A DNA stretch of 64,000 bases from Tremella fuciformis (taxonomy: Eukaryota; Basidiomycota; Tremellomycetes; Tremellales; Tremellaceae): NCBI GenBank assembly GCA_032768795.1, contig CP136490.1:2728001-2792000 (forward strand), in the 5' to 3' direction. The notes under the pieces are model-generated. The model saw nothing but the letters and a program-made list of their open reading frames with translations, had not been told where the DNA came from and ran no database searches. A program made the position numbers and the translations under genes. Every line of letters starts with the position of its first letter. Positions within the stretch are counted from its first letter, which is position 1. Shown here in pieces: positions 23,150 through 51,244 of the stretch.

Positions 23150-24814
23150 CTACGCAAACGTCGGCAGCTTGCCTCGTTTTGGCAGGCGGCCCGAACGTCT
23201 CGACGAGCTGCTGCGCGACGAGGTCGTGCTGGAGGCGAGTGACGACCCCCATGAGTCTGCCGACGACGAGGCTGTACCGGTGGACGATACGAGCGACGGG
23301 GTGCTAGACCCGCTCGACCAGCCCTGCAGCACGTCGTGCCTGCTCATCTGCCACCGTCCTCTCGCCGAATCCTCGTCGTACTTTCGCAGCGGGACGAATG
23401 GCGTGGACGGCATGACAGCGCTCTTCAGCCGTGGATACTGCAATGGCGGCGTGTTGAATCCGTCTCTGGCCGAGCCGGGCGCGCGCAAGTCCGCGCTCCA
23501 CGGCGTGTCCGGCTCGTCAGACGACTTGGCGGATAGTGGGCTTCCGAGCGAAAGCGAGGACCGCACAGGCGGGAGCGGGAAAGCCATACCGAGCTGAGCG
23601 AACGACTCGTCGTCGGTATCTGACGCCGAGGAGATCTCATCGTTCGACTCGCCGGCCTCAAGGACCAACGATGCGAACGCCTTCTGAGGGTCGACAGCGT
23701 GATATCCATCCAAGACGCAAGACAGCGAATGATGAGCGCGGCGGACCTGGGGCGTGGTCTCGAGTGGCGGCGATGCAAGGCGGTTCTTCGGGGGCCGTGG
23801 ACCGCTACGCGAAGGTGTGCGCGGTGTCGCATACCTGGACGGGAGGATCTCGGCTGGTGGTAGCAGCTCTTGTCTTTTGGCGATGCCGCGGGACTTGGGG
23901 TAGGACAGGCGCCGGCGATCGGCAGCAAGGTCAAGACGAGGCGGCGGGGGTGCGCTGCGCCGGAAGAGCGGGGCGTTGCCGGACCACGAGCGAGCGCCAA
24001 AGTCTCTCGGGAGAGTAGATGTGGAAGCGAGAGCGGCGGCGGAGAAAGGGTGTGCGGGCTCGCTGTCGGCCAGCTGGATGACGGTCTTGTCGAAAAAGTC
24101 GTTGGCGGCCTGGGCAAAGTCGAACGAGGGCGAGGAGAACTTGAAAGCTGACCCGAGAGACGGTAGTTGTGCAGGGGAAGTCTCGGCGACGGCGGGCTCG
24201 GATTCATTGGGAAGGACGAGTGCTGGTGTGGACAGCTCAGGCCACTCGGGGCTAGTGCGTCCGAAGGTGAATGGCGAGGGGGAGAAGAACGGGTCGTCTT
24301 CTTCGAGATTAGGGGTAATGACCCGCAGGCTCTCGTCCGAGCTGCGGCTCTCGGTCGACTCCCAGGACGCTCTGCGATCTCGGCTGCTCATGTCGACGTC
24401 ACTCAGCAGGATCTCCTCCATGTCTGCGTCCATATCCACGTCTTGGGGAAAGTCGGTTGCGGCTTCGGCTCTAGACGATATACGGGGCGAAGGAGCCAGG
24501 CACTCGCTCGAAGCGCTGGCCGAGGGGATTGATTGGAGGTCGGAGCGAGTGGACGCCTTGAGCGATACGGGGGAGATGGGCTCGGCTTCCTCGGTAACGG
24601 TGAATAGGCCAGACAGTGCCGGTGCACGAATGGGCATATGCCTCCCCCGTCGACGTCGAGGGGTGTACGTCGGGGGCTTGGGTGCCCGGCGATGCGGCGC
24701 AGGCGGAGAGATGGGCAGAGCGCGCTCGTTCAGATTCTCAAACGAGAAGACGTTCTCCCAGTCATTCTCAAGGGGGGCGGGGTATAAATGACGGGCGAAC
24801 ATGGTGGTCGTCAT
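23150..24814 (-). CDS. Unknown Ser/Pro-rich disordered protein
   Basis: A single uninterrupted frame of 554 residues from a proper ATG. I do not recognise it. It opens with a short ordered-looking segment (WENVFSFENLNERALPI), then an Arg-rich patch (PRRRRGRHMPIRAP) that could be a nuclear signal. The rest is low-complexity Ser/Pro/Asp sequence with many S-P sites, an acidic patch (DVDMDADMEEILLSDVDM), a short block with SCVLDGYHAVDP, and a Ser-rich C-terminus ending in basic residues. The many S-P/T-P sites suggest phosphorylation by proline-directed kinases; this is inference. It lacks introns, unlike nearly all neighbours outside the 38-48 kb array. Confidence 0.7.
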   Translation of the reverse strand: MTTTMFARHLYPAPLENDWENVFSFENLNERALPISPPAPHRRAPKPPTYTPRRRRGRHMPIRAPALSGLFTVTEEAEPISPVSLKASTRSDLQSIPSASASSECLAPSPRISSRAEAATDFPQDVDMDADMEEILLSDVDMSSRDRRASWESTESRSSDESLRVITPNLEEDDPFFSPSPFTFGRTSPEWPELSTPALVLPNESEPAVAETSPAQLPSLGSAFKFSSPSFDFAQAANDFFDKTVIQLADSEPAHPFSAAALASTSTLPRDFGARSWSGNAPLFRRSAPPPPRLDLAADRRRLSYPKSRGIAKRQELLPPAEILPSRYATPRTPSRSGPRPPKNRLASPPLETTPQVRRAHHSLSCVLDGYHAVDPQKAFASLVLEAGESNDEISSASDTDDESFAQLGMAFPLPPVRSSLSLGSPLSAKSSDEPDTPWSADLRAPGSARDGFNTPPLQYPRLKSAVMPSTPFVPLRKYDEDSARGRWQMSRHDVLQGWSSGSSTPSLVSSTGTASSSADSWGSSLASSTTSSRSSSSRRSGRLPKRGKLPTFA

Positions 24815-26026
24815 GCCGATCTCTGGCGAGTCTATATAGATAGGGTTACGCCCTGGGGCAGCGGCGGAGCCTGGACATGGTCAGCCGACACTGTCACAGG
24901 GATAGTCCGATCTGAGAGATGCAGGCCTGGAATCGGGAGAGAAGAAGAGGGAAGCGGACTTACGCTTGCGATGGGACGCTGGTCTCGGATGGGCAGGTCG
25001 CGCTGCGGAAAAGTGAGACAGTGGGCCAGGCTAGGAAGGCGCGTCGAGGGGTTTATGACGAGGTCGGCGACGCGAACTGACTGCTCTTGGCTCTATCGTT
25101 GCTACGTTACTGGGTTTGCTGCTCGTATCGGTCGTGAGGGTCGTCAATGTAATTGTGGAGTGGGTCAATGACAGAGCGACAAGTGACAAGGTCAGTCTGG
25201 CGCCAGGCAGACAGACGGGTGTGAGACTATAAAGACAAGAACAGGCGGGCCTCGTGCGCTGCACGGCGGGCCGATGCTTCTTTTCTGCGCTTCGAGCGTC
25301 ACGAGGACAATAGAGAAGCCTGCCAGAGGCGTGGAGTGGGTGGTGCGGCGTGGCCGAAGGGTGGCCGGGCGTCGGACACGGGGCGTGGAAGCGAGCCCGC
25401 CAAGGAAAGAACCAAAGAACCAAGAAGCAGAGTGGAGCGGGGAGGGGAGGAGGGGGGATCTGTGATGGCATGACTCGTGTTCGTTGGTCTTTTGTACGAT
25501 GCGCAATGACAATAGACGTGGACGGGAAGGAGGAAGAAGGTTGAAAGGCAGCGAGCCTAGGGCAGGGGGATCGGAATGTTGAACGATCATTGTCCTCTTG
25601 CTGCTAGTCTGTGCACTCGGACGAGGGGGCAGGTCCCGGGGCCACGAGCATGATGACCCGTCTAGCTGCACCCTTCGACATTCTCCTCGATGGATGGGCT
25701 GGGGGCAGGGAAGAAGAGGAGCGGCGTGTCGGAGATGAGCAATGAGAACAATAGCGAGTCCGAGTAGCTGGCGGGCGTTCTTCATTGTTCTTTCCTCCTG
25801 GGCCGTGGCTCGTGGCTCGTGTCTTGTGGCCGAGCTGTTCCTGTCACCTGCCCCCTTGCTCCGACGAGCATGTCAGCGCTATGCATACCAAGATGAGGCG
25901 TCAGGAAGAGGACAAGGGACGACAGGACAGGACAGGTCGAAATGAAGGCACTACAACTCCCCGCGGCACTGGCAATTCCTCCAAAGGCACCGAGGTTCTC
26001 TCTCTTCCATCTCTCTACTCTACTGC
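24815..26026. other. Long divergent intergenic region
   Basis: 1.2 kb between the Ser-rich gene and SOM1, unusually long for this window. A TATA-like ctatatagat lies at about 24,834, only some 20 bp from the Ser-rich ATG. Open frames here (for example 25192-25785 on the minus strand) are low-complexity Pro/Ser/Arg and show no conserved block. The last 60 bp before SOM1 are CT-rich. Confidence 0.4.
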
Positions 26027-35460: not shown

Positions 35461-37292
35461 ATGGCGCCCTCGTCGCCCGACATGAGTCACCTCGACGTCC
35501 GCCTCAACTCGTTTGCAGCCATTGTTAAGCCGAAAACACGGGCCAAACCCGCGTTCCCGCACTCACCAGCAACCCATCCTAACCTCTCGGCACAAGCACT
35601 GGCAGAAGCAGGGTTCTACCACACGCCGGGCTCGTCCTCCTCGTCGCTCGACACGGTCCGGTGTTTCCTATGCGCCTGTGAGCTGGGAGGTTGGGAAGAG
35701 ACAGATGATCCGTTCGAAGAGCACGTCAAGCGCAAGGGCTGCGCGTGGGCGGATATAGTGTGTCAGGGCAAGCTCGATGTGAGCCGCGGCAGGTTGAGGG
35801 ACGATTACGATGAGCCGGAGGAGCTGCCGGGGAGCAAGGAGAGCGCCAAAGTCCGCGAGAGGACGTATGACGGGTGGCCGCATGGCCGTAAAGCTGGCTG
35901 GCTACCGACGCCAAAGAACGTGTGTCTTTCGTAGAATAAAGCGGAGATGAGCTAATGAATAGCTTTCCAAGGCTGGTTTTGTGTTCTTCCCTTCGTCAGA
36001 TGCGGCAGACTGCTGTCTTTGTCCTCTCTGTGACCTCTCCATGGACGGCTGGGAGGCGACAGACGACCCGAGGTAAGCCGGATAATGTGCAGTGGGTTCA
36101 GCGGCTGACAGCCAGGGCGGTTCACCTGCGCAAGTCGCCTGATTGTCGATTCTTCACGGCGACATTGCGTGGTCAAGCGGCAGAATCATCAGTATGTCGC
36201 CGATCCTGAAACATGAGCCCAAAGACTGATGGAAAGACCAAAGCCCTGCAAAAGTCTCAAGTTGGTCGGGGGCGACAGACTCGAGCCCAGACAGTCGCCT
36301 CGGAAGTCCCCGAATCGGTCGCCGAGCCGGAGGAGCGGGAGCATGCGGTTGCGGACGTGGACAAGCCCAAACGGCAAAGAAAGCCAAGAGGGACGACTGT
36401 AGCCAAACCCAAAGCAGCTGGCAGATCGACCCGGAAGAAGGCGGCGCCGGCAGAAGACGAGCCCGAAGAGCCTGACGAACCCGATGGCGAGGCGCAGTCT
36501 CAGGCAGAAGACGAGGTCGCGAACGATACACAGCTGACCGAAGCCGCTTCGCAATCGTCAAAGACACGCAGAGCACGACCACCGAAATCTCAAACTGTGG
36601 ACGACGACTCTCAAGAAGCGAGCAAGAGCCAACGAAGCACCCAGTCCAAATCGTCCCGGTCTAAGAAAACGGCACCGCCAGCAGTCGAGGCGGTCACCGC
36701 CAGTGAAGCAGAAGAAGAGGTGCCCGAGGCAGAAGACGAAGAGGCGGAAGAGCCTTTGGAGGAAACGCCGAAAGCGTCCAAATCGTCCCGAGCGACATCG
36801 CGGCCGTCCAAGCCATCTTCCCGGTCTGCCGGCCCACCGCCTGCACCCTCGGAAGAAGCACCGGTCGTGCTAGCGCCCTTGTCTCAGCTACAACGATTTG
36901 CGAATGTACCGCCCCTCTCCCCGGTCCCAGACCAGGTACCCGATTCGTCCCGTCCGATCAAACCTCTCAAAGGCAGCAAGTCTTCGCGCAGTATCGCCAA
37001 CATACCTCGCGAATCGCTGAACAAGTCGCTGCATCAGGGGGCTCTGGCGGCACGGGGCGTCGTCGAAGTCATCGCTGCATCTCCGCCGATACCAGTGCCA
37101 GAGTCGAGAGCGAAGGAGGCTGAGCAACTCGACCTGCCCTTGGGCGACGACGAGAACAAGATGACGGTCGAACAGCTCGTCCGGTCCGAGATGAAGAAGC
37201 GCTATGACCTCATGGAGCGCGAGGGCGAGGAGATGATTCGCAAATGGGAGATGGCCACCATGGACGCTCGGAGGAAGATTGAAGGGTTGTAA
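35461..37292 (+). CDS. BIR1: Bir1/survivin-type chromosomal passenger protein
   Basis: Fungal survivin homologue; in yeasts it links Aurora kinase and INCENP to the inner centromere. Exons 35461-35919, 35963-36072, 36116-36191 and 36237-37292 splice to 566 residues. Two BIR zinc folds are present: CFLCACELGGWEETDDP with H and C in EEHVKRKGC, and CPLCDLSMDGWEATDDP with VHLRKSPDC. The second domain is split over three exons. The middle is a long Ser/Glu/Lys-rich disordered region with S-P and S-K-S sites. The C-terminus (MTVEQLVRSEMKKRY and GEEMIRKWE) is helical, like the INCENP/borealin-binding end. Joining the BIR part with the disordered part depends on a 45-nt intron at 36192-36236; otherwise they would be two genes. 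I favour one gene. Confidence 0.88.
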
Positions 37293-37680
37293 TTGGCTGT
37301 ACTGCCTTGCATGAGGGTATGTCGACAGCGGCTTCGTTTCACCCAGATGAAAGCTGTGTGTACATTTGCCAAGGCTGGGACGAGGTGTTCAACAGGCTTG
37401 CCATTCCCTATCTGGTCGTGGTAGTCTACATAGGCCAGGGGCAAGCACTTGGCATTGGCACTGAGAAAGGTGATTCACGCCGCTTCGTTACGAGCCCTGC
37501 GTGGCCGCTGTTGTTGTTCAACACTAGGTTCGCACGGTTCTTCGGTCTCGGCAACGTCTCAGAAAATGCATGAAGGGTTACTGTACACGTCTAATTGCCA
37601 AAGAAGAACAATTGCATATATATATACAAACCACTGCCGTATCCTGTCAATGACGGAGAAGGGCATTCAGCCAAACGCTG
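37293..37680. other. Convergent spacer before the paralogue array
   Basis: 388 bp between BIR1 and the first array gene. It includes a short TA run (tatatatata, about 37,616-37,625) and otherwise nothing recognisable. Confidence 0.4.
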
Positions 37681-38844
37681 CTACTCCGCCGGACCCGACT
37701 GTGGAGCAGGTGCATTCCACTGTGAAATGATGCCTCCGGCATTGATCCTCTCCGTTCTGGTGCACGCCCATCCTATCTCCGACGCGCGGCAAGTCAGGCA
37801 ACCTTCCAACAAGAAGCTCCGATGCTCCGCATCGATTCGAGTCACAATTGTACAGGCGTACCTCTGTGGACAGAGGGTGCATCTATCGTTCTCCCTAATG
37901 ATCGGGAAGGCGTTGTAGGTGTTACGCAAGCCTTGGCGGGCCGCGGTCCATTCTGGTCCAGCCTGATTAGGGTGTTCCGCACTGTATCGTGCGGTCCGCT
38001 CGTTCAGCGCAGAGATGAAGGAAACCCACGTAGCGACCGATGCTCGTGTCCACTCCATGCTCATCTGCCAACATTCATTGGCCTCGATCGCCGGAGACGT
38101 CCAGACGCTATCAGAGTTGAGCATTCTGTCGACCAATTGTGCCCTTTCCCTGGTAGGCGGCCAGTACGTTCGAACTCGATTGAAAACACGTGCTAGATTC
38201 TCCCCCTCGGCTGATAAGATGGCGTGCGACCGGTCGCCCGCAATCGCCGCACGAAGCTCTCGAAAAGTCTCCTGGGACACCAATGGACGCGCTGCCTGAG
38301 ACAATTCTGCCCAGACGTTGGTGTTCCAAGGGGCGATGTCGAGGGGCGTGCCACGGGTCACTTGACGATTACGACAGGCGCTCTTCGGGATTTCCATTGT
38401 CGTCCACAGTACCTCTCGCAACGCCGCTGTTATTGTTTGACCTTGAGCAAGGAGATCCGAGTAAGGACCGTTCAAATGCTCCAATAGGTCCAATGCATTT
38501 GTGTTCAAGGGAAGTCCCCACCACTGGGGCGGAATATCAGCAATTTCGGGGATGGTCCCAGCCTCGCCCAAGACGGGCCGTGTGGCTACCATTGCCAAGA
38601 GGGATCGCCCTGGCGCTTCAGCCGCACTGGTTCGCAGCATCGCTGGACCTGGAATGTGAAGTCCAAGGGGACCCGAAGATCCTGATGCGCCTGAGTTTGC
38701 CCCAGTGACATCACGTATAGGTGGCAAAACGGGCCGATCATTTTCAGACCATGGATGTGATCGCCCTCGATTCTCCTGTTCTTCGCCTTCCTCTTCGCTG
38801 GAGTAATTATCCCAATTCTGACGATGACCACTAGGATGACTCAT
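37681..38844 (-). CDS. Array paralogue 1 (group A), unknown function
   Basis: 387 residues from the ATG at 38844, single exon. Acidic start (SSEEEGEEQENRG) and a Pro/Gly/Ser-rich first 100 residues. Core: YWPPTRERAQLVDRMLNSD, then the group A mark MEWTRASVATWVSFISALN, then CTLCPQRYAC, EGCLTCRASE and WAC (spacing 2-5-17-2-8). It has the tightest first cysteine pair in the family. It is the last gene of the array and faces BIR1. Compared with paralogue 3 it keeps the EWTRAS and aromatic helix best; the W-x-x-V-R block is replaced by EWTAARQGL. No targeting signal or membrane segment is seen. Role unknown. Confidence 0.75.
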   Translation of the reverse strand: MSHPSGHRQNWDNYSSEEEGEEQENRGRSHPWSENDRPVLPPIRDVTGANSGASGSSGPLGLHIPGPAMLRTSAAEAPGRSLLAMVATRPVLGEAGTIPEIADIPPQWWGLPLNTNALDLLEHLNGPYSDLLAQGQTITAALREVLWTTMEIPKSACRNRQVTRGTPLDIAPWNTNVWAELSQAARPLVSQETFRELRAAIAGDRSHAILSAEGENLARVFNRVRTYWPPTRERAQLVDRMLNSDSVWTSPAIEANECWQMSMEWTRASVATWVSFISALNERTARYSAEHPNQAGPEWTAARQGLRNTYNAFPIIRENDRCTLCPQRYACTIVTRIDAEHRSFLLEGCLTCRASEIGWACTRTERINAGGIISQWNAPAPQSGPAE

Positions 38845-39428
38845 GATTGCTTAAGCTTGGAATGGGGAAGTCGAAGGTTAAAGTCAATCAGAAAGCTGAT
38901 GAGAAGACTCCGTGTTCAGAAACGTTGCTCGCTTACTGCAGATTTGAAAGGATTGGTTGTCTCAAAGGACGATTTCCTCCCCAGGCCATTTTTTCCAAAT
39001 CACCGTGGGCAGCGGCTAAGGCGTATGCTTTGGCTCCTAGCAGGCGTACAGTGCTAGATGATCGGTAAATTTGGATTTCACCCAGCAGGATATCCGATAA
39101 CTGAGAGTCAGGGGGGTGCCGGATCGCGCACGGACCAGTTACCGGACTCCAGCTGGGGCTTATAGCCCATCTGAGAGTCGCAACGCTCCTTGCAAGCCCG
39201 TTGAGTTTCAGTCGATTGGGGGTCCTTCACTTACGCCTCCGGAAGAAGCCGCACTGTGCTCTGCCAGGAAGGAAGATCTCCACGCTCTCCAACCTGTGCG
39301 CAGCTGAGTGCGATCCAGGAGAACCTCAACACAGCCTGAATAGCGTGTAATACAGTCACGTACGAGCGGTGGCATAGCATACTTAGGGATGTCATGCTAT
39401 GGGGTTACTGAAGTATCATCCGTTTGCA
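38845..39428. other. Array spacer 1-2
   Basis: 584 bp upstream of paralogue 1 and downstream of paralogue 2. AT-rich just before the start (about 38,850-38,960). No cysteine-core remnant was seen in a plain reading of both strands. Confidence 0.35.
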
Positions 39429-40658
39429 CTATAACGCCGACGGTCGCCAACTTCCAACATTGTGGTTCCTGGGCACTTTGCCCTCGGCTGAACAGAATGG
39501 GCTGAGTGTCGAAATGCATGACAAGCACCTTCCCATCGTGAAGGGAGGCCTATGAGAGGTATCGTACACCATCGGGACCACGCAATGGGAGGATCGGCAT
39601 TTTATTGTGTGCTTGCGGACCGTGTTACACCTGCTATGGTCTGTCCGAACGAGGGGAACTTGGAGGTGTTGGCTTTTCAGGGTGTCGCGAACCGTGTCCC
39701 AGCCTACATCTGTCGTGTGATTCCTATAGTATAAGGACCGCTTCCCTGTGGAGCATGCCACCGTAGCCGTGCTCATAATGAAATTGGCGACTGCTCTACA
39801 CTCTCTCGCCATTCGGTCACGGTCCTCGATTGTATACTGCGGATCAAGGTCCTGAGAAGGCTCGCAAATCGAGCGTGTAGCTCCAGTCCAAATCTCGTCC
39901 GTATTGAGAGCACGGTGGATCTTCTCTGTCCACGATGCATCCATTGGCCATACCTTGCTGAGCGCCAGGAATGGTGGAGCCCGAGCCTCCTCACGGACCT
40001 CAAAGTCGATAGCTTGTTCTTTGATCCGGCTCAAGGCTTCGAAAACCTCTTGCGCTGCAGTTTTGGCTCCTGAGACTGGACTTTCCCTTTCCTTGGGGTG
40101 TAACGCGATCAATGATGGTGTCAGAGCGGTGTCCTTTTCTACCATATTTTGGAGACGAGGGGTGATCGAACGAGACATAGAGGTCAAAGGAGATGAAGGC
40201 TGCTTGATTTCCAAAGGCCATTCACATGTCTCTGAGGGTGTCGGCTCCTCGGTAGCGGGACTTGAACACATTGAAGAATCAAAGTCGGTGCTTGCCGCAT
40301 CGCGCATCTCATCGTCAAGGCACATCTGGGACTGAGCCTCGAGGTCTAGCTCGGGCGTGGGCGGAAGGGGCGAGTCGGCCCAAAAGATCGCTTCGTCCTG
40401 CTCGTCTAAACTCCACACCGAGCTCGACTCTGGAAATAGGGAGGAATCATCCACGTCATTTGCGACCGGTTCTTCAGACTCAGCGAATCCGCCGCCGAAG
40501 CTTGGAGTCCACTTCGAAAGGGTCACCTCGTCCACAGGAGAGTCTTCAGGCTCCCAGAAGCTCCGCAGTACGTGCTGCGAGCGCTGAATGTCCAGCCATC
40601 GATCGTTCATGTAAGCTGTCTCTGGATCTTGAAAGTCCATGTCGGGTACGTTCGACAT
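39429..40658 (-). CDS. Array paralogue 2 (group B), unknown function
   Basis: 409 residues from the ATG at 40658 (MSNVPDMDFQDPE). The frame is open 16 codons further up, to another ATG at 40706, but the shorter start matches its sisters. Strongly acidic N-terminal half with SSVWSLDEQDEAIFWADS. The core begins KVWPMDASWTEKIHRALNTD and continues EIWTG, then CRAVANFIMS, VGWDTVRDTL, LQVPLV, and the cysteines in RCN, KCRSSHCVVPM, GRCLSC and PFC (9-4-18-2-7). It ends with NVGSWRPSAL, a short tail that recurs as S/N-x-G-S/D-Y/W in the other members. The acidic half plus putative zinc site would suit a nuclear regulator, but that is only a guess. Confidence 0.75.
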   Translation of the reverse strand: MSNVPDMDFQDPETAYMNDRWLDIQRSQHVLRSFWEPEDSPVDEVTLSKWTPSFGGGFAESEEPVANDVDDSSLFPESSSVWSLDEQDEAIFWADSPLPPTPELDLEAQSQMCLDDEMRDAASTDFDSSMCSSPATEEPTPSETCEWPLEIKQPSSPLTSMSRSITPRLQNMVEKDTALTPSLIALHPKERESPVSGAKTAAQEVFEALSRIKEQAIDFEVREEARAPPFLALSKVWPMDASWTEKIHRALNTDEIWTGATRSICEPSQDLDPQYTIEDRDRMARECRAVANFIMSTATVACSTGKRSLYYRNHTTDVGWDTVRDTLKSQHLQVPLVRTDHSRCNTVRKHTIKCRSSHCVVPMVYDTSHRPPFTMGRCLSCISTLSPFCSAEGKVPRNHNVGSWRPSAL

Positions 40659-41271
40659 GACCGCGGGCTGGCAGCTTGGAGGGGATGCACAAAAAGACAG
40701 AAACAATAATCATTTGAATGCTGTGATGTGCAAATCGACTCATGTCGTGCGAGTCAGGCGAAAGGAGGCGTTTTGACAATGGATGCGGTGGCCCTTCGAA
40801 ACACGTTGCTCTTGGGCGGGGATTCCTCACAATGGATGAACTCACACACTGATATGTGCAAGCCCTTTGAGGGTGTGAATAGCGGGCTTACTTCCCGTGG
40901 CCCAAACTTATCAAGGCGAGGCGCGCGCGCGCTGACCTGTGCCCAGTGCGACCTTCAGAATCTCTCTGCCTCCCGGAGAAGCCATATAACCGCCCATGGG
41001 GTCCGCAAACGATCTCGAAGGCGGTGCGAACGCCTGCCAGCTTTTTAACTCTTCTGAGGTCTGCCTCAAGGAGGCTTGGGAGATCGATCCAGTGACATGT
41101 ATGAGAAACGTACCGTTTCCCCCGCACTGTCTCGAGGCCTCTGGACCATTTCCATTTACGGTAAGAACGGAGATATGCATACACGAGAAGGAGTAGCGTA
41201 CTAGGGACAGCCGATGCTGCGGCGAATCTAAGTCACATGGAGTGTTGCTCAGGTGGGCCATATGTCTACAC
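40659..41271. other. Array spacer 2-3
   Basis: 613 bp. A gcgcgcgcgc run lies at about 40,919-40,930. A minus-strand frame (40888-41184) has no start context or family core and was not called. Confidence 0.35.
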
Positions 41272-42507
41272 TCAACATCCGATACGCCAATTGCGAGATG
41301 AACCTAGGGATTTGACTTGGTATTTAGCCTTGCTGCATCGATGTGGGACATTGTCTTCTCTACAGTGATTGCAAGCTTGGATCTTGTACTTCGTTTCCTG
41401 TTTGCTGTCGTCCCATAGCGATTGTACGAAAACTGTGCACACGTATCTACTCCGGCACGGCGCTGTCCGGATGCCCGAATTGCCTCGCGAGCACTTGCGA
41501 ATGTCCGCACCGATTGAAAACGGAGAAGAGCAGCCTTTCAGAAAGGATCGGACGCGCATCGACTGCTCGTCAACACGGTCAGGATTTCTGTTGAGAAACA
41601 GCGCTGTTCTGAGAGTCATGGCTGAAATGTACGAGATCCAATTCGCAATTGAGGCTCGTGTCCACTCCAGCTTGAAGTCCAGCTCTTCATTCCGCTGACC
41701 TTGGCGAGTGTGCCAGTTGTTGTATTCTTGCATGAAGGCGTCGGCTCCCCTCCCCCTTGACTCTTGCACACCCCAATAGCGATGGACTACATCGAATGTT
41801 TTCACAAGGGTGTCACCCTCGCTGAACAGAATGTCTTCGATAGGCGCCTCATCAAGTGTCGTTGCCCTCTTGAGCTTTTCAAAGACGTCGGAAACGTGGT
41901 CGATTCCTTGTTTCCCGATCTCTGTCTGAAAGCCCTCCCAATCAAACGTGGGGGACTTCCAAGGTGGACGTACCGCTTCCAGTAGGGCCTCTGGGCAGGA
42001 GCCATCGACGTCGACAATCATAGCATCCAATCTTTCAAAGGCACGGAAAACGATCTCCTCCGTTCGGTCTTCGGGAGGATCTGTCACAGGCTTGCTCAGT
42101 CGTTCCTCAAGAACAGATTTCCAGTTCGGGATCTGTATGTTGCTATCGCTTGGCCGCTGGCTCATGGTACGCATAGTGGAAGACCGCGCAGCAGATCGTC
42201 CTCGTGTGCGAGCAGAGCGGCGTCCTGAAACAGCCCTGGCGCTGCGGCTCCTGGCGTTCTCTCGGGCTCGCGTGTTAGGATTCGGCCTGGCAAGCGGTGA
42301 AAGGCGGTGCAGCGGGTTCCCGCTGGAGGAACGAGCCACACCTGGACTTGAGGTGGATGCCGTGGCCGCGCTGAGAGTCAGACCAGGGTCATGAGTGGGT
42401 CTCGCGACTGGTGCTAGTGTCGGCGTATGGTCACTGGAGGACGATGACGAGGAGTGGCTAGTCACGATCTCATCTTCGCTTTGGCTCTGCTCCCGAGCCT
42501 GATTCAT
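41272..42507 (-). CDS. Array paralogue 3 (group A), unknown function
   Basis: 411 residues, single exon, ATG at 42507. The N-terminus is Ser-rich, followed by an Arg-rich stretch (SRSARAVSGRRSARTRGRSA), the only strongly basic segment in the array and a possible nuclear signal or nucleic-acid contact. Group A mark: LEWTRASIANWISYISAM. Cysteines: KCSRG, PCRSRYVC, QACNHCREDN and RC (11-5-21-2-8), the longest central loop of the family. It ends LGSSRNWRIGC. Closest to paralogue 1 over the helix that follows EWTRAS. Two large spacers flank it. Confidence 0.75.
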   Translation of the reverse strand: MNQAREQSQSEDEIVTSHSSSSSSSDHTPTLAPVARPTHDPGLTLSAATASTSSPGVARSSSGNPLHRLSPLARPNPNTRARENARSRSARAVSGRRSARTRGRSAARSSTMRTMSQRPSDSNIQIPNWKSVLEERLSKPVTDPPEDRTEEIVFRAFERLDAMIVDVDGSCPEALLEAVRPPWKSPTFDWEGFQTEIGKQGIDHVSDVFEKLKRATTLDEAPIEDILFSEGDTLVKTFDVVHRYWGVQESRGRGADAFMQEYNNWHTRQGQRNEELDFKLEWTRASIANWISYISAMTLRTALFLNRNPDRVDEQSMRVRSFLKGCSSPFSIGADIRKCSRGNSGIRTAPCRSRYVCTVFVQSLWDDSKQETKYKIQACNHCREDNVPHRCSKAKYQVKSLGSSRNWRIGC

Positions 42508-43472
42508 GTCGTCTTGTCTTTGTGTGGAATTCGGGTTGCGCTTGGAGAACTACTGCTGGGTTCAGTAGAGAAGCAGGTCGATTTCGATCCAACAGCTTGC
42601 AGCTTGCATTCTCACTGCAAGTGGAAGGCTACGGGACACAAAGGATGCTGTGTGGCCTGGAGAGCGGTCCTAAGGAGAAAGTGAAAAAGTTGAACTGGTC
42701 AGCACGTCAGCCATTCGATATTTCCAATCGAAGGAGAACCAGGCAGAGGTAAGGGATTCGCCCACATCTCGATCCGTCATCGATGCATAACCATGCTGTG
42801 ATACTGAATGACATCGATGCTTTACACTAGGGGTACTCTATCAGTCCAATCGGGACATTAGCACGATACAGTCGGGTACCGAAAGTCAGATCCAGGTATC
42901 AAGTGATGAAGACTTCTGGTACCCGATGGTACCATTCACGTCGCATTCCTCTGCTGCAAACGTAGATCTGTTCGCGAGGCATGTCTACCGGCTCTCAAGC
43001 TCCATCTGGGGCGCTGTCTCAGACGGCAAGCTAAACATATATATTCAAGAGGCGAAAATCTAGGAAAAGGAGGGACGGTCTACATATTTGCACTTTAAGA
43101 GGTGTGGGGGCTTCAGATGAAAGGGCTATACGATGACCCGTGCGCTCGAATACGTTGCCAAAATCCAAGTCTTGCACAATCGACTCAATTCTTGCCTCTT
43201 ATTTGAGCGGGTCTTCGAAACGGGGCTTATCCAGCGCCTGACGGGCCAATGACGGGCTGGATGCCACTTTGATGCTACAGAGCCCGGTCAGAGGACTTCA
43301 AGATCCGTGGCAGCCACCTGAAAATGCTTTGCATATACCCACATTTTGAGAGTGTTTCCATAGCTGCAAGGAGCTGGAGACGAGAACAGCGGCGAAGAAC
43401 GGCAAGGGTGCATGTCATGGGAAGGTAAACAGAAGTACTCGTTAGATACCTTAGCTAGCCCTGAGTCCCACA
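42508..43472. other. Largest array spacer, 3-4
   Basis: 965 bp, long enough for a gene, but no frame shows the family core. Includes a gtaccgaaa/ggtaccattc segment (about 42,875-42,935) with several GGTACC-like hexamers. Could be a decayed copy or an extended promoter for paralogue 3; nothing decisive. Confidence 0.35.
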
Positions 43473-44927
43473 TCAATAGACCTCAAGCTTATAAGAACCG
43501 ATGCCAAGCTCGGACAGCCGCTTCCCCGAATGGCTACAAGGTGCCTCTGGGGTTCTGCTCGCACAACAGACGCAGCGACCAATCACGGCACTGGCCGTCG
43601 AAGTCCTGGTCACGGGCACAACGCACGTCGCTACTGGACATGGACCATCTCGGATCTTAAGCCCCAGCTCTCTCAACCTGTGCTTACATCGATGTTGCTG
43701 AGAGAGAGGCACGGCAATCTCGGCGCCATTCCAAAAAGTGTGTCGTACACTGTTCCAGTCGGCACCGCGTGGCACCCCCCGGGGCTTGCCTATCTTGGGA
43801 TCTTTGCGCTCCTTGAAAGCGGTGTCCATTGTGCGAAGGGCGAAATTGGAGATATCACGGACCTGTTTCGACAAGGGCATGCGGTCCTCTCCGGTCCAGG
43901 GTCTCTGCTCGTTGAGAAACTCATGCACGGTCCTGGTCCACTCATGATCGAACCGCCAGGCCTTTTGGAGCTCCCTGAAGCTAGATGCACTGTCCATGAG
44001 TGGACCCTCGAAATTCAAATTCATGTTTCGCACATTTTGGAGCGCTTGACGAACCGCATTGGCTTGGTCGTATGCCTGCAGGCTGCGAGGGGTCGGAGTG
44101 GCGGCGCGTAGGGCTCGGTATGCTGTCAGAAAGACTTTCTTGCGGGACGTTCGATCTCGTTTTGACGGCATCGACGTCCTGGTGGAAACCCACGCAGCAG
44201 GGGTGGACGCAGCCAAATTGTGATCTTCACGGATGCTGCCAACGCATAAGCGTCTCGGCGGAGCGACTGCTGTTATCGCGCCGGGAGGCGTCTCGTTGGG
44301 GCCAGAGCACCGTTGAGCCTGTTGGGGGGTCACAGTCTCGTTGGTGGATTCGCCAGCCACAGATCTAAATCCAGACTCCACTTCTGAATAGCTGGGGACC
44401 TGGAACTTCTGTTGTGGCACTCTCTGATGGGGCGCGGGAATCATATCGGAAGGCTCTGTCACTTCGAATGCACTGACCACATGTGAAGTCTGAGCAGTGT
44501 CCGCCTCGGTCAACCAGGAATCCCAGTCCATTTCGTCGTTCGCAGTTTGCACCATAGTGATGCAGGCTTCATCGAGTTCCAGAGGCACGTGCTCTGAAAG
44601 TTGTACCGAAGTAGCGCTCAGCAGCGGGCTGAGGCAACCGGTCGGGGTGAGGGAAAGTGATGGAGTGTCGCTCGTGAGTGGTGGGGAAGCCAACCGATCT
44701 TCCCATTCTGCGAGAGGGTCGGGGAGGTCGACCAAACCCGAATGAGATGTGTGATCTGCCCGGTCGAGAGCGTCCAGCGCATCGTATACGCTACCACCAC
44801 CATTGTGCTCGATGCTACGTAAATATGGGTTTTGCTGGGTGTGGTCTTTCACGCAATGGTCGGACAGCAGCTGGAGGAATTCCAGGGCGGTGTCTCGGGA
44901 AAGTTCGGGTGTTTCTTGAGGGCTCAT
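43473..44927 (-). CDS. Array paralogue 4 (group C), unknown function
   Basis: The longest member, 484 residues from the ATG at 44927 (MSPQETPELSRD). The N-terminal 250 residues are acidic and Ser/Thr-rich; a small basic patch (KRDRTSRKKVFL) precedes the core. Core: AWRFDHEWTRTVHEFLNEQ, then PWTGEDR, VRDISNFALRTM, ADWNSVRHTFWNGAEIAVPL, and cysteines in RCKH, PCPVATCVVPVT, GRCVCC and PC (15-4-16-2-8). It ends LSELGIGSYKLEVY. Its FWNGAEIAVPL is almost repeated in paralogue 6 (FSNGAEIALPL), the closest match between any two members. Upstream lies a cluster of GCCACA repeats shared with paralogue 6. Confidence 0.78.
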   Translation of the reverse strand: MSPQETPELSRDTALEFLQLLSDHCVKDHTQQNPYLRSIEHNGGGSVYDALDALDRADHTSHSGLVDLPDPLAEWEDRLASPPLTSDTPSLSLTPTGCLSPLLSATSVQLSEHVPLELDEACITMVQTANDEMDWDSWLTEADTAQTSHVVSAFEVTEPSDMIPAPHQRVPQQKFQVPSYSEVESGFRSVAGESTNETVTPQQAQRCSGPNETPPGAITAVAPPRRLCVGSIREDHNLAASTPAAWVSTRTSMPSKRDRTSRKKVFLTAYRALRAATPTPRSLQAYDQANAVRQALQNVRNMNLNFEGPLMDSASSFRELQKAWRFDHEWTRTVHEFLNEQRPWTGEDRMPLSKQVRDISNFALRTMDTAFKERKDPKIGKPRGVPRGADWNSVRHTFWNGAEIAVPLSQQHRCKHRLRELGLKIRDGPCPVATCVVPVTRTSTASAVIGRCVCCASRTPEAPCSHSGKRLSELGIGSYKLEVY

Positions 44928-45399
44928 TTTGGACGACGACAATTGGTGACGATGCGTTCAGTGTAGAGAGGGATGCATCAGATTCAGAATGCAGGCCTGA
45001 CACAGGTGAAGCGTTCGCGCGCACCTTTGAAACCCAATACAAGCTCAAATGCCCATTCCATTAAGAAAGCATGGCCTTCAGCAACCGCCACACTGCCACA
45101 CTGCCACGCCACCTTGCCGCCACATTGCCTGCCCTTTCGTCAGCATGCCGCACGGATCGTTCATTGTTGTGGCGGCCCGCAAGGAGTATTGATCCATGTG
45201 TACATCGCTCCTAATTATAACATTTCTGGTAGTCCATATGATAAATAACCAATTTCTGCACAATAAGGACAAGAAATCATGGTTCCAGGCTGGAAGGGAA
45301 GACCCTGATTCCACTGACTCGTCATCCCACAATAGTATAGCGGTACTCGCTACTCCGGGCTTTGATAGGGAGCCTCGCACAAAAAAAAGAAGTTAAACC
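44928..45399. promoter_or_regulatory. Upstream region of paralogue 4 with GCCACA repeats
   Basis: 472 bp. Between 45,086 and 45,130 the plus strand carries GCCACA/GCCACG/GCCACC units repeated about six times. The rest is AT-rich, with taattataac near 45,212. Confidence 0.5.
45118..45129. promoter_or_regulatory. CGCCACATTGCC element, copy upstream of paralogue 4
   Basis: Twelve bases identical to a copy upstream of paralogue 6. It lies 191 bp before the ATG, inside a run of GCCAC units. Only the two group C genes have it as far as I can see. Confidence 0.5.
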
Positions 45400-46647
45400 T
45401 CAGTCAGTCCCTGGAAAAAGCAATGCGTAGTCTCCGATACTGGAGTTGTTTGCCTTCCTTCCCCCTTTCGAGCAATTGGAACTGTCGATTTCACAAGAAA
45501 GGCAGGTCTTGCAGGAGAAGTGCTTCCTAGCTTCGAAATCCACCGTCACGGGTAGCACACACCTGAACGCTGGACAACACTCTCCTCCGCGTCCATATTT
45601 GTCGCGACCTATCTTGCATTTGAATTTCTCGGACAAAACCATGGGAATCTCAACGCCTGGTTCTTCGAGTTCCGCTCTGACCTTTGCCCATTCCGCTCGA
45701 CCGTGGCTCTTCCATGACCTGAGGGATTGGCTTGTCTTGTTGCGTTTGACGACTGAGTACGCAAAGTACCCGGTCCTGAGCATGAAACAGGCGATTGCAC
45801 GGCTCTCGCTGGCGATTCGCTCACGGGATTTCTGAGTCAAGTGCAAATCCTCTTTCCAATAGGCCTCCTGGTCCTCCGTATCGGGCGAAGCCCAGATCTC
45901 ATCGCTGTTCAGAACTCGATGGATCTTCGCGGTCCAGGCTCTGTCCATGGGCCATATGTCCTGAAGTGCGAAGAATTGGGTCACACCCTCCTCCAAGGGA
46001 ACTTGAAGATTGACTTCTTGTGCTTTCAGGCTATCGAGCGCTCGCAAGATCTCCAGTGCCTCGTTCTTCGCTTCACTGAGCGTAGTCGGAACCGGTGATG
46101 GGTCCCTTCTTCGGGACGAACGGGTGTTCTGCGCCACCGAGGTGGACGCAACAGAAATTGAAGTGTCCATCTCTTTCGCCTTCGCGGGTTGCAAGTCGCG
46201 TGAGCGGGTGACCGGCACACGCATCACCCGCGAGCCTGTTGGCTGAGAGGTCTGCTCTGCGGTCAGCTCGGGGTTTGACTCTTCATGCACGTCCTCGTAG
46301 TGCTGCATGTCGGATAGAGAACCGGAAGGCATCTCCCAGCTTGACTCTGCAGGTGACCTGGGATCTGACACCTCTTGCGCGTCCTCGTCGCCCTCCATAT
46401 CGAACAGGACGCCCGAAGGCGACGAGCTTCGTTCGATTTCCAGGTCTAATGAATGATCTGAATCAGTGAACCCAGACTTGGATTGCGACACATGTGTAGA
46501 GAGGGTGTCTTCGTCCACCGAAGTTCTCTTGCGCTCCCGCTGCTGGGGCTGTTCGATGGTCGGCTGCCCGACTTGCTCATGAGCCCAACTTGTAAGAAAG
46601 AACGCTTCCGGCTTGTCAAAGTCGATCGTTGAGCCGGTATCCATCAT
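45400..46647 (-). CDS. Array paralogue 5 (group B), unknown function
   Basis: 415 residues from the ATG at 46647 (MMDTGSTIDFDKPEAFF). The frame is open to 46920, overlapping the end of paralogue 6, but that extension looks unlike any sister and was dropped. Acidic middle; Arg/Ser patch SSRRRDPSPVP. Core: DIWPMDRAWTAKIHRVLNSD, EIWASP, SRAIACFMLR, AEWAKVRAELEE, VEIPMVL, then cysteines in KCKIG, CCPAFRCVLPVT, TCLSCEIDSSNC. It has two extra cysteines (CC and CKTC), so the metal ligands could differ. Ends SIGDYALLFPG. Closest to paralogue 2 over WPMD to EIW. Confidence 0.75.
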   Translation of the reverse strand: MMDTGSTIDFDKPEAFFLTSWAHEQVGQPTIEQPQQRERKRTSVDEDTLSTHVSQSKSGFTDSDHSLDLEIERSSSPSGVLFDMEGDEDAQEVSDPRSPAESSWEMPSGSLSDMQHYEDVHEESNPELTAEQTSQPTGSRVMRVPVTRSRDLQPAKAKEMDTSISVASTSVAQNTRSSRRRDPSPVPTTLSEAKNEALEILRALDSLKAQEVNLQVPLEEGVTQFFALQDIWPMDRAWTAKIHRVLNSDEIWASPDTEDQEAYWKEDLHLTQKSRERIASESRAIACFMLRTGYFAYSVVKRNKTSQSLRSWKSHGRAEWAKVRAELEEPGVEIPMVLSEKFKCKIGRDKYGRGGECCPAFRCVLPVTVDFEARKHFSCKTCLSCEIDSSNCSKGGRKANNSSIGDYALLFPGTD

Positions 46648-46864
46648 CAACAGCCTCTCGGAGTGAGTCAGATTGATGGGATAGACACAAGCGGGTTCTT
46701 CAGACGGAGCAAGCCCGGTAGTGAAACCATAGAGCTGAAACGATACCTCAAGCCAGCTTCGTTCCTTTCTAGTGGACCTTGGAGCTGGGGAATGACCGAA
46801 GGTCACTAAGGCTGGAGCTGTTGTGTGGCTCACAGGGTGTACAGTATGTATGCATGCGGAATGA

Positions 46865-48112
46865 TCAGAGTGGCTGCCCCTCAGAAGCAGCATCACATGC
46901 AACTGCGGACATGCCCGCATTCGATGAGGGGCTGTAATCCAAAAATCTCTTCCACGGAAACACCCCTGATAAGCTGCAGTACTTCCTTCCCACAGTACAT
47001 GAGATGCAGGCTTGCATTTTGGCCGAGTCCTCGTCGGACCTAAACGTCACCGGGGCCACGCAGATGCCTTGACATTGTGCCTCGCGAGTGCTCTCATCCC
47101 TGCACCGAACCGCGTCGTTCAGGGGTAACGCGATCTCAGCCCCGTTTGAGAATCTCGATCGAATGCTATCCCACACTGGGCCAGCACGGCGAGCCCGCAC
47201 ATTCTGGCCGTCGCGCAGTCTGACTGCTGAATTCAACATTCGGGTCGCAAAGCCGGATATGTCATGAATCGCTTTCTGTAGCGACTCTCGGTCTCTCCCA
47301 GACTGACCCACGGGAGACCCCCGCGCTTGGCGTTCCAGTTTCACCGCCGTCCACAGACAGTCGTCGTTGAGGACGCTGTAGAGCTGCTTGGTCCACTCCT
47401 CGTCGAATCTCCACACTGAGGAGAGCCGTGCGAATGTCTTTGGGCGTATTACTGAACCAGGTTGGAGGTGCAGATTGAGTGCTTGGACTGCGTAAACCGC
47501 TTGACAGACCTGGGTAGCTGCTTGAAGTCGGCCTTCCATGTCGGTGGGATGGGTGTATCTGGCGGGGAGCGAGATGGATGTGTGCGAGGCTTGCTGAGGG
47601 TACGAGGGGACTTGTCCCGCCTGAGAGTCAGGTGCCTCTCGCTCAGAGTCTTGGTGGACGCGATAGGCCCTCGAATATTGACGAAGAGCGTCAGCGTAAT
47701 GCTGGCTCCTCTCTTCAAGACTACCGTCCGATTGATGGGGATGATCATCTTGACGTGGGTTGTCGGTCTCTCTTGAGGGGGACAGAGAAGGAGTCATACC
47801 CATCCCGAGGGTCTCAATGTAGTTTGGGGTAGCGGGAAAACTCAACTCCAACTCGTCCATGCCATCCTGCCATGATCCTGCCACTTCACTTTCGCCCATC
47901 GAGTCTTCCCCCATGAGGCTCGACGCTATCCAAGCGTCTTCGGGTGCGAAGGCATCAGCGTTCCTCGCCTGATTGATGATCCCACCGGCCGACGGCTCGT
48001 ACATCGGAGCCGAATGGTCAAGCGCGTCCCACTCACTGTGGCTCGAGGTCAGCAGGTCAAGCAGTCCGTCGACCGGCCAGTCAGGGCGCACTTCAGGCAT
48101 CTGAGCGCTCAT
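46865..48112 (-). CDS. Array paralogue 6 (group C), unknown function
   Basis: 415 residues from the ATG at 48112 (MSAQMPEVRPDWPVDGLL). The frame is open a little further up but only to a GTG. First gene of the array in transcription order. Core: VWRFDEEWTKQLYSVLNDD, LWTAV, IHDISGFATRML, VWDSIRSRFSNGAEIALPL, cysteines in RCRDE, QCQGICVAPVT, QACISC and KYC (9-3-17-2-6). The tail after the last cysteine is longer than in the others. Its stop is 217 bp from the start of paralogue 5. Divergent from CDC6. Confidence 0.77.
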   Translation of the reverse strand: MSAQMPEVRPDWPVDGLLDLLTSSHSEWDALDHSAPMYEPSAGGIINQARNADAFAPEDAWIASSLMGEDSMGESEVAGSWQDGMDELELSFPATPNYIETLGMGMTPSLSPSRETDNPRQDDHPHQSDGSLEERSQHYADALRQYSRAYRVHQDSEREAPDSQAGQVPSYPQQASHTSISLPARYTHPTDMEGRLQAATQVCQAVYAVQALNLHLQPGSVIRPKTFARLSSVWRFDEEWTKQLYSVLNDDCLWTAVKLERQARGSPVGQSGRDRESLQKAIHDISGFATRMLNSAVRLRDGQNVRARRAGPVWDSIRSRFSNGAEIALPLNDAVRCRDESTREAQCQGICVAPVTFRSDEDSAKMQACISCTVGRKYCSLSGVFPWKRFLDYSPSSNAGMSAVACDAASEGQPL

Positions 48113-48272
48113 AATCTGTCTCGATAATCGTAATACCTGAGGAACACCACGAAAAGACACAAGTCAGAAAGAAGCCTGCCCATGCGAAGCACGGTTTAGC
48201 TTCTCGTTGAAAAGTCTTCTAGCGTCGGTCAAAAGAACGAACCCTCAAAGGAGGCTCGCTATAAAGGATGCG

Positions 48273-48284
48273 CGCCACATTGCC
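48273..48284. promoter_or_regulatory. CGCCACATTGCC element, copy upstream of paralogue 6
   Basis: Identical twelve bases to 45,118-45,129, here 161 bp before the paralogue 6 ATG and followed by another GCCACA and GCCAC. Confidence 0.5.
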
Positions 48285-48604
48285 ACAATGCCACTCTCCC
48301 CAAAATCACGTGACGTGTCGCGACGCGACTGAATTTCCTTTGGAAGTGTGGCAGTTGATGGTTGACCCTTGATGGTTAATGTTCCTGAACTTGGCGGACC
48401 ATTTCAATGTGACACTTTCACCCTTCCTCCCCACCTCCTTCTTTCTCCTCTTCTCTTCTTTGTCTACTCTTCATCTCCACCCCCCTCCCCCCTCCTCACA
48501 CGCACACGCCGACGACCACTCCCTGCATTTCTCATGTCAAACTCGGGGTAGTCTGTGACAGAGAGACACGCCTGTGCCACCGCCGATCACCATCACTCTT
48601 CGTC

Positions 48605-48610
48605 ACGCGT
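48605..48610. promoter_or_regulatory. MluI cell-cycle box (ACGCGT) upstream of CDC6
   Basis: ACGCGT, the known binding sequence of the G1/S factor MBF, 134 bp before the CDC6 start. Function here is inferred from the family and from CDC6 being a G1/S gene. Confidence 0.5.
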
Positions 48611-48743
48611 GCTCTTCCCACTCGTCCCGTCCCGTCTCGGGATAAGACATAAATGACCACTGCTCCCTCTCTCTAGACACTCTTCTTTCACACCTTGCCG
48701 TCTCTTGTATTCTCATTGTTTCTTGTAGTATCCACGCTTCATC

Positions 48744-51244
48744 ATGCCACCCGCCAAACGCACCCGATCACCGACCAACGAGAACAGGGAGACCGAGGAG
48801 AACAGCCACCGAGGAGACCCCACGACTCCGACTCCATCTCGCACGACCCATACCCGAAGACAGTCCCAAAATGGTCTGCCAACACCCAACACCACTCCCC
48901 GGCCCATCCTCACGCGTTCAGCCACCATCCATCTGTCCACGACAACGGCTTTCACCCCCTCGACACGACGCGGCAACGCCCCTTCTTTCCCTTCCGGCAA
49001 CTCGTCTCTCAATCTCCCCGGCCCGTCCAGGCTGGGTGGGAGCACAGGAGGTGTGGGCGTGTTGACGCGCACACAGTCGTCGCCTGCCATAGGCAGTCCG
49101 AGCAATCTCAAAGCCCTGACGGGTGCTGGTGCACCAGGGGGCAGCGGAAGGGGCAAAGGCGACCCTGACTTTGGTGCTGGACCGAGTGGTGGTAGGAAGT
49201 GGGGCAGGGGCAAGGAGAACATCCCACCGAAGAAGGAAGACGAGAACGATGCGCAGGTCGCACCGCGGAAGAGGCTGCGTGTTGGAAGCGGCAGCAACGG
49301 TCGCGGGAGGAGTGGCAGTGTGAGCAGTCTGCGCAGCGAGGCAACCTGTGAGTGACCGCCCTCACCCTGCTTGCTAGCCTGCTAATGCGTGCAGCATCGC
49401 GAGCATCTCTGGGTGCTACGTCTTCCCTCTCCCGCATCGGGCGTCTGCTGTCTCCCTCTCCATCACCCTCATCGGCCACGACTCAATCTTTCGACTCGAC
49501 AACGTCTACATCCATCAACAGTACATCCAACTCGGAGTATTCGGCGGCCGATGTCACCCCTACGAAGCCTCGAGCGCAGCAATCGACCAATGCTCTGCCT
49601 ACGCCTCCGCCCTCATCTCCCTCCCTCAGTCTCGACGTCGTGCAGTCCACGACCGAACGCGTCGAGCTGTTGCGCATGCAGAGTTTCTCTAGCACTGCTT
49701 CAATCCTGACCGAAACGGATTCGACCGACGTCTTCATGGAGGACCCGGCCAAGAAGAACCCTTACAAGGTCTTGAAGACTTTCCTACGCCTCTCCTCGGG
49801 TTCGGACGCCTCTTCGGATCGGGCTGTCGTCGGACGAGATCTGGAGAAAGACACATTGAGGTCTTACCTTGCGGGACAGGCTGAAGTTGGCATGTACGTG
49901 TCCGGGCCGCCAGGAACGGGAAAGACAGCCACCGTGACTGCCCTTGGAAGGGACCTGCGGGGTGAGGGCTGGAACGTGATCGACATTGGGTGTATGGGGC
50001 GCAAAGTCGCGGACATGTGGGCTTTGTTGGCGGACAAACTCGGCTGCGAGATGACCGAGGAGGGCGTGCAAGGCGCCCTTGCTGAAGCGTCAAAGACGTC
50101 AGTTACTCAGTGACTGTCTCCTATAGAGCCCGGGCTGACTGCTAGTCTCATTATCCTCGACGAGATCGACTCTTTGCTTCCCCCTCCACCTGCAACCCCT
50201 CCACCAGCAACGTCGCACCTCTTGACGAAGCTCTTCCGTCTACCTGCCTTATCCAAATCTGTCAAGCTCGTTGCCATTTCCAACACCCTTGACCTCACCT
50301 TGCGTGCCAACTTGCTTCTTTTGGACAGCCAACAACCTCTAGTCTTGCCTTTCAAGGCATATGCCGCGGCGGACATGGTCGAAATCGTCAACGCCCGTTT
50401 GGCACTAGTCGGTCCCGATGGTGTCAAAGCCGATGGCAAAGCGGTCGAGCTCCTCACGCGCAAAGTTGAGGCTCAGAACGGTGATTTGAGAATGTGCCTC
50501 GGGTGCTTCTCCTCGGCAGTATCGCTGGCAGAAGCGGAATGGCTGAAGAAGTGCCAATCTGCCACGACAGCGGACGATGTGCCCTTGATCAAAGTCGGGC
50601 TTGGCCATACGATCAAGGCGTTCAATTCGCACACACAACAACTGAAGGCGGCTGCTGGGTCTTCGAATGCGGCTGCCAGCGCTGTCAGCAAGAAAATTAG
50701 GTCGGTCCAACTACAAGGCAAGATGGTCCTTGCAGCCTTGCTTGTCTTCACCGCTCGAGCGCGCGCGGGGTTGCCGGGTCTGCCCTCTTCGCCTGCGACT
50801 TCGAACGTGGCATCGCCGACCGCGACACCTACCAAGTCTGTCGAGACGCTCACTCCTGGCAAATTGTATGCGACGTACACCCATCTGCTGTCGCACAAAA
50901 GCTCGCCTTTCCCACCTTCGGCGGAAAGTGACTACCGAGATCTCCTCTCGAATCTGGAAGTCTTGGGTCTGGTAGCACTGCCTGGAGGAGGGCTAGCCGG
51001 GAGCATGACCATGTCGCGATCCTCGTCAGGAGTTTCTGGTCGAGGTGCAAAAGGTGGCAAGGTGGAATTGTTGATCCGAGAAGAGGAGCTTCGAGAGGGA
51101 TTGGGTCTGGTGGGAGGGGCCGGTGGAAAAGGCCTGGCCGAGGAGGAAGTGGCCAAGATCTGGGAGAGGGAGGAGGGAAGGATTTTGCGAGCGAGGGAGA
51201 AACAGAGAGAGGCGGCCGAAGGTTTGGCCAACGGATTTGCTTGA
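48744..51244 (+). CDS. CDC6: Replication licensing ATPase Cdc6
   Basis: AAA+ protein that works with ORC to load the MCM helicase at origins. Exons 48744-49347, 49395-50097 and 50146-51244 give 801 residues. The N-terminal half is basic, Ser/Thr/Pro-rich with many T-P/S-P sites, expected targets for CDK control. AAA core: VVGRDLEKDTLRSYL, Walker A GPPGTGKT (about residue 371), Walker B LIILDEIDSLLP (split by an intron), sensor 1 AISNTLDL, and the RKVEAQNGDLRMCL sensor 2 region. A winged-helix C-terminus is likely after 50,850. A Ser/Pro-rich loop (LPPPPATPPPATS) follows Walker B. It lies head-to-tail with thymidylate synthase. Orc1 is excluded by the absence of a BAH domain. Confidence 0.88.

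Follow-up and report, generated by a model that had tools for sequence, protein, structure and literature searches.

A tandem array of six diverged, intronless paralogues sharing a six-cysteine signature in Tremella fuciformis

Introduction

Zn2Cys6 proteins (GAL4-type, PF00172) carry six cysteines in the spacing C-x2-C-x6-C-x5-12-C-x2-C-x6-8-C, usually together with long low-complexity parts. In basidiomycetes, CxC cysteine clusters accompany KDZ transposases; these clusters are basidiomycete-specific and their function is unknown. Cysteine-rich, lineage-specific tandem families are frequently secreted, and Tremella lives with other fungi. Here we describe a gene family that recalls all of these while differing from each, an array of six adjacent genes (g1 to g6) in a 64-kilobase (kb) stretch of the silver ear fungus Tremella fuciformis, positions 2728001-2792000 of contig C1, hereafter the window. 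The genome searched comprises 28,140,229 bases in 11 contigs, with the window on the largest; PMC13066641 covers 27 haplotypes of T. fuciformis.

Like Zn2Cys6 proteins, the array proteins possess six cysteines with a second half of the form C-x2-C-x6-8-C. Unlike them, they have a first half of C-x2-15-C-x3-5-C, and the cysteines are C-terminal, behind a helical domain. They were not accepted as Zn2Cys6 members, C-x2-C-x6-C being present in none of the six, the loop spanning 16-21 residues and no profile match being obtained. With the KDZ-associated clusters the array has in common that both are cysteine clusters of basidiomycetes, but it lacks an adjoining transposase and any Pfam match above cut-off.

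The six-cysteine array

Six single-exon open reading frames (ORFs), all on the minus strand, fill positions 37681-48112 of the window (Table 1), in agreement with the sequence-only reading, an earlier inspection of the DNA that had reported six same-strand neighbouring genes there. The signature given in that reading, C-x2-15-C-x3-5-C-x16-21-C-x2-C-x6-8-C, is borne out in all six proteins, against one of 12,000 shuffles, and is confined to them among the 112 window ORFs of at least 150 residues (0 of the 106 others). The cysteines are placed in the last quarter of proteins of 387-484 residues, following long, polar N-termini, and together with F, W, W, R and R they make up the 11 invariant core columns of the six-sequence alignment.

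Further landmarks proposed alongside the cysteines hold less strictly. W-x-x-V-R is exact in three of the six (g2, g4 and g5), with A replacing V in g1, I replacing V in g6 and the W missing from g3, while I/V-P-L/M is exact in two of the six (g2 and g5). A C-terminal tail resembling N-x-x-I/V-G-x-W/Y is present in g2, g4 and g5 and missing from g6 (46865-47104), where an unrecognised intron near the 3' end is possible. The start codons of g2 and g5 are supported, because the BLASTP alignment of the two proteins begins at residue 2 of each and extends almost to the C-termini; the g5 start was set at 46647, its open frame extending upstream to 47046.

Paralogy and divergence

All-versus-all BLASTP connects the six proteins, g3 being significant to g1 only. 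Profiles built from five members recover the sixth in every case (g1, expect (E) value 8.2e-14; g2, 2.2e-31; g3, 3.7e-14; g4, 4.3e-30; g5, 1.7e-36; g6, 6.5e-26), the best of 999 shuffles per gene reaching E 0.14-1.1. The relationship asserted in the sequence-only reading is thereby confirmed, and the six genes are, as judged from these comparisons, true paralogues, with a core identity among pairs of 15-35%. In the tree, g1 and g3 (subgroup A) are split from g2, g4, g5 and g6 (subgroup B) with a support of 100, and g4 and g6 are joined with 97. The joining of g2 to g4 and g6 has a support of just 61, so that g2 and g5, though the best BLASTP pair, are not shown as sisters.

In the core pairs, similarity is higher at second than at third codon positions in 15 of 15 comparisons and higher at first than at third in 14 of 15, in a protein-guided alignment that is biased towards this result. 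Synonymous divergence is saturated, with third positions near random, and the frames are still open. This implies that all six frames have long been maintained, an argument for selection at the protein level.

Relation to known families and distribution

No curated cut-off in Pfam or NCBIfam was reached by any of the six members, and no profile search placed them in a known family. Relaxing Pfam to E<=5 yielded just DUF7187 and ARM_TT21_C, in one member each and far below any cut-off, and PDB sequences gave nothing better than E 2.4. Among 5.8 billion proteins, no relative was found at E<=1 with g6 (5453 candidates) or with the six C-terminal parts (6637 candidates), in a search that depends on shared 5-residue words and can miss relatives of 30% identity. 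As a control for the database, the Med12 ORF of the window (5708-9007) returned 32 proteins, with 7991 candidates scored: environmental proteins at 98% and 88% identity, Tremella mesenterica at 59%, Kwoniella, Cryptococcus, Vanrija, Cutaneotrichosporon and other Tremellales at 43-49%, and two distant basidiomycete matches. Since the database returned Med12 from Tremellales yet no family member, the annotated proteins of T. mesenterica and Cryptococcus are unlikely to include a close relative.

No description of this family was found among open-licence papers. Together with the structural comparison given below, these searches agree with the earlier statement that no named domain with this pattern was known to the reader, and they support the view that the family is undescribed as far as the searched libraries reach. 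It is best read as probably restricted to its lineage; the earlier suggestion of a lineage expansion fits six paralogues in one fungal lineage and no outside relative at E<=1.

Within the genome, seven protein queries (g1 to g6 and one piece of the copy described here) revealed one additional member, on contig C2, and no further one at E<0.01, the search being run in six frames, exon by exon, so that diverged or intron-split copies can be missed. Two pieces of the C2 copy match the core profile (4.3e-16 and 6.5e-14), the C-terminal piece having the six-cysteine pattern. The N-terminal piece is 41% identical to g1 (3.5e-19) and 32% identical to g3 (1e-7), grouping the copy with these two. Conservation outside the array, which the sequence-only reading had made a point of its refutation, is thus found in the existence of this copy and qualified by its division between two frames, which may be real decay or an assembly error. 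Weaker genome matches at E 0.037 (contig C6), 0.097 and 0.34 (C5) and 0.15 (C3) were not accepted as members; the core profile scored at best 9.0 bits (E 0.014) on these loci, on the opposite strand of the C3 locus, which was likewise not accepted.

Predicted architecture and structure

The proteins appear to be built of two parts. The N-terminal part is long, fast-changing and probably disordered, while the C-terminal module of about 200 conserved residues would comprise a helical bundle, marked by the W and R landmarks, and then a small, strand-rich part with the six cysteines. The cysteines would hold the strand-rich part, most likely via zinc: six invariant cysteines in proteins with no evident signal sequence favour a zinc-held fold rather than disulphides. 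The best 19-residue mean of a crude hydropathy measure is 0.86-1.18 across the six, so no strongly hydrophobic stretch is present.

Two structure models of moderate confidence agree with this order of elements. The g2 core model (predicted local distance difference test (pLDDT) 74, predicted template modelling score (pTM) 0.77) consists of helices and then strands around the cysteines, and the model of the g1 C-terminal part (pLDDT 62, pTM 0.61) has the same element order. Foldseek comparison of both models with the PDB gave no match at E<=0.001. The common zinc fold anticipated in the sequence-only reading is plausible; the g1 and g2 models share the helices-then-strands order, and neither has a significant PDB counterpart.

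The C-terminal halves have isoelectric points (pI) of 7.8-10.3, making the module basic. Acidic N-termini, as described earlier, are found in five of the six (N-terminal halves at pI 4.05-5.07), g3 departing with pI 9.09. An acidic N-terminal half combined with a basic C-terminal half is characteristic of g2, g4, g5 and g6, the values for g1 being 5.07 and 7.77. This combination in most members gives the proteins a plan like that of transcription regulators.

Proposed function and alternatives

The reading preferred here, to which we assign a probability of roughly 0.4, is that the six old tandem duplicates encode lineage-restricted intracellular, probably nuclear, zinc-dependent regulators that bind DNA or chromatin. 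The proteins would most likely act in the nucleus, with DNA or chromatin bound by the basic C-terminal module and the transcription machinery or other partners contacted by the N-terminal part, which is variable and in most members acidic, possibly with activation as the outcome. The six genes are presumably expressed. Windows that are acidic and contain W, F, Y, L or M exceed shuffled expectation in three members, the observed count being reached by 1 of 500 shuffles for g2, 0 of 500 for g4 and 4 of 500 for g6.

Several observations weigh against this proposal. Neither g1 nor g3 has such a window and g5 is at chance (133 of 500 shuffles), while 23153-24880 and Sin1, two ordinary ORFs of the window, have 40 and 28, as many as the family, so the windows are not specific to it. 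The N-terminal half of g3 is basic and Arg/Ser-rich. The structure models were built on six sequences, with middling confidence in the cysteine part (g2 block means of about 54-86), and neither sequence nor structure comparison gave a match to a known DNA-binding fold. The term system, used in the sequence-only reading, is not supported for the locus, which consists of diverged paralogues with one copy elsewhere and for which no partner gene was identified.

Four other explanations were weighed. The array proteins might act within the cell as regulators or scaffolds with proteins, not DNA, as their ligands (recognition or incompatibility factors, for instance), the cysteine module being a protein-binding zinc or cysteine fold and the N-termini diverging with their partners. 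We regard this as rather unlikely, seeing that structural similarity scores are within the chance range for helical models, that no partner or recognition domain was found and that no mating-type or incompatibility locus is known to include the array; in T. fuciformis the P/R and HD loci are placed on Chr08 and Chr07 (PMC10696834), whereas the window belongs to the largest contig. A known zinc family diverged beyond profile reach, such as a derived Zn2Cys6 or treble-clef-like finger behind a helical domain, would explain why the signature ends as that of Zn2Cys6 does, with C-x2-C-x6-8-C, and why the first half of g1 reads C-x2-C-x5-C, in a genome where true Zn2Cys6 domains are abundant (at least 151 matches). 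The first-half spacing is nevertheless wrong in all six, Zn_clus is absent from the Pfam scans of all six at E<=1 and E<=5, none of the genome Zn2Cys6 matches listed falls inside the array, and HHalign against 19 of 30 Zn2Cys6 domains of the same genome gave probabilities of 2.8% and 1.6% over 8 columns, which leaves this origin unlikely.

An origin of the genes in a mobile element, or as its accessory genes, is improbable. All six ORFs are intronless, and a Ty3-type gag-pol element starts about 5 kb from the C2 copy, itself split over two frames, yet no transposase, gag or other element domain occurs in the six members, the largest spacer of the array is single-copy in the genome, direct repeats of at least 20 nucleotides in 36500-49500 amount to three short two-copy families only, and the seven protein queries of the genome retrieved just seven members. 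Membership among mobile-element genes was therefore not accepted after element domains, dispersed copies and flanking repeats had been checked. Least credible are secreted cysteine-rich effectors acting on a partner fungus, despite the tandem, lineage-specific and cysteine-rich character of the family and the association of Tremella with other fungi. No N-terminal signal peptide is evident by crude hydropathy in any of the six, the best 10-residue mean within the first 45 residues being -0.73 to 1.13, with no hydrophobic segment there, and the cysteines are located behind long polar N-termini; the proteins were not accepted as such effectors.

A bolder form of the nuclear-regulator reading holds that a hitherto undescribed module, zinc-dependent and binding DNA or chromatin, originated in Tremella or close to it and has been retained as six diverged tandem regulators, one case of a habit of this genome for intronless orphan arrays; this we consider doubtful. 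Were a new zinc fold acting on DNA or chromatin to be confirmed, it would show how a fungal lineage can build regulators that belong to none of the known factor families, and would provide a testable lineage-specific gene set for a fungus relevant to breeding. Were it not, the array would still be a clean example of an orphan tandem family whose frames have stayed intact despite saturating divergence, with a bearing on the origin of such genes.

Table 1. Array genes, their six-cysteine stretches and associated features (window positions unless a contig is named)
Feature	Position	Strand	Description	BLASTP
g1	37681-38844	-	387 residues, 388 codons with stop; single-exon; subgroup A	g3 5e-21, g5 9e-8
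g2	39429-40658	-	409 residues, 410 codons with stop; single-exon; subgroup B	g5 3e-34 over residues 1-404
g3	41272-42507	-	411 residues, 412 codons with stop; single-exon; subgroup A; N-terminus basic and rich in Arg/Ser, in contrast to the other five	
g4	43473-44927	-	484 residues, 485 codons with stop; single-exon; subgroup B	g6 5e-25
g5	45400-46647	-	415 residues, 416 codons with stop; single-exon; subgroup B	
g6	46865-48112	-	415 residues, 416 codons with stop; single-exon; subgroup B	
g1 six-cysteine stretch	37762-37881	-	spacing 2,5,17,2,8	
g2 six-cysteine stretch	39492-39629	-	spacing 9,4,18,2,7	
g3 six-cysteine stretch	41335-41493	-	spacing 11,5,21,2,8	
g4 six-cysteine stretch	43536-43688	-	spacing 15,4,16,2,8	
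g5 six-cysteine stretch	45472-45618	-	spacing 13,4,18,2,6	
g6 six-cysteine stretch	46976-47104	-	spacing 9,3,17,2,6	
Seventh family member	C2:1856367-1857498 (L016 8368-9499)		split over two frames; guanine-plus-cytosine (GC) content 0.48	
GTGGC/GCCAC words upstream of g4	45087-45173	-	six words, some at 8-base steps	
GTGGC/GCCAC words upstream of g6	48274-48352	-	four words, three at 8-base steps	

Genomic surroundings and further observations

The neighbours of the array in the window are ordinary nuclear genes, namely Med12, an SPB4-type helicase, mitochondrial L23 and Sin1, with another ORF that is Cdc6/ORC-like and below the Pfam cut-off. The array is flanked by this Cdc6-like gene and by an ORF at 36210-37289. 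The GC content of the array is lowered, at 0.533-0.564 per 2 kb, and is similar in the window at 18-22 kb and 56-62 kb (0.539-0.549).

Another tandem set is present at C3:829873-837125 (L071 2374-9626), consisting of five same-strand single-exon ORFs with open frames of 232-348 residues, linked by BLASTP at E<=0.01; the three of them that were scanned match nothing in Pfam at E<=0.1. It resembles the six-cysteine array in being made of single-exon, same-strand, tandem paralogues, about 25% identical and with no Pfam match, but has no similarity to it in sequence (best BLASTP E 0.11). This set suggests that tandem orphan paralogues, intronless and deeply diverged, recur in the genome, perhaps as a habit of it and not as something peculiar to one family.

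Among the at least 151 Zn2Cys6 matches listed, about ten pairs share a strand and are separated by 90-290 bases (C1:2815307 with 2815594 and C5:523839 with 524016 among them), as if many proteins had two Zn2Cys6 clusters.

Upstream of the six genes no shared promoter word was found, the commonest 8-mer occurring in three of the six, as in most shuffles. The g4 cluster of GTGGC/GCCAC words amounts to 6 words per 450 bases, and 7 of 1271 window stretches have as many; the g6 cluster amounts to 4 words per 450 bases, and 63 of the 1271 have that number or more. The two clusters, belonging to sister genes, stand at nearly equal upstream distance.
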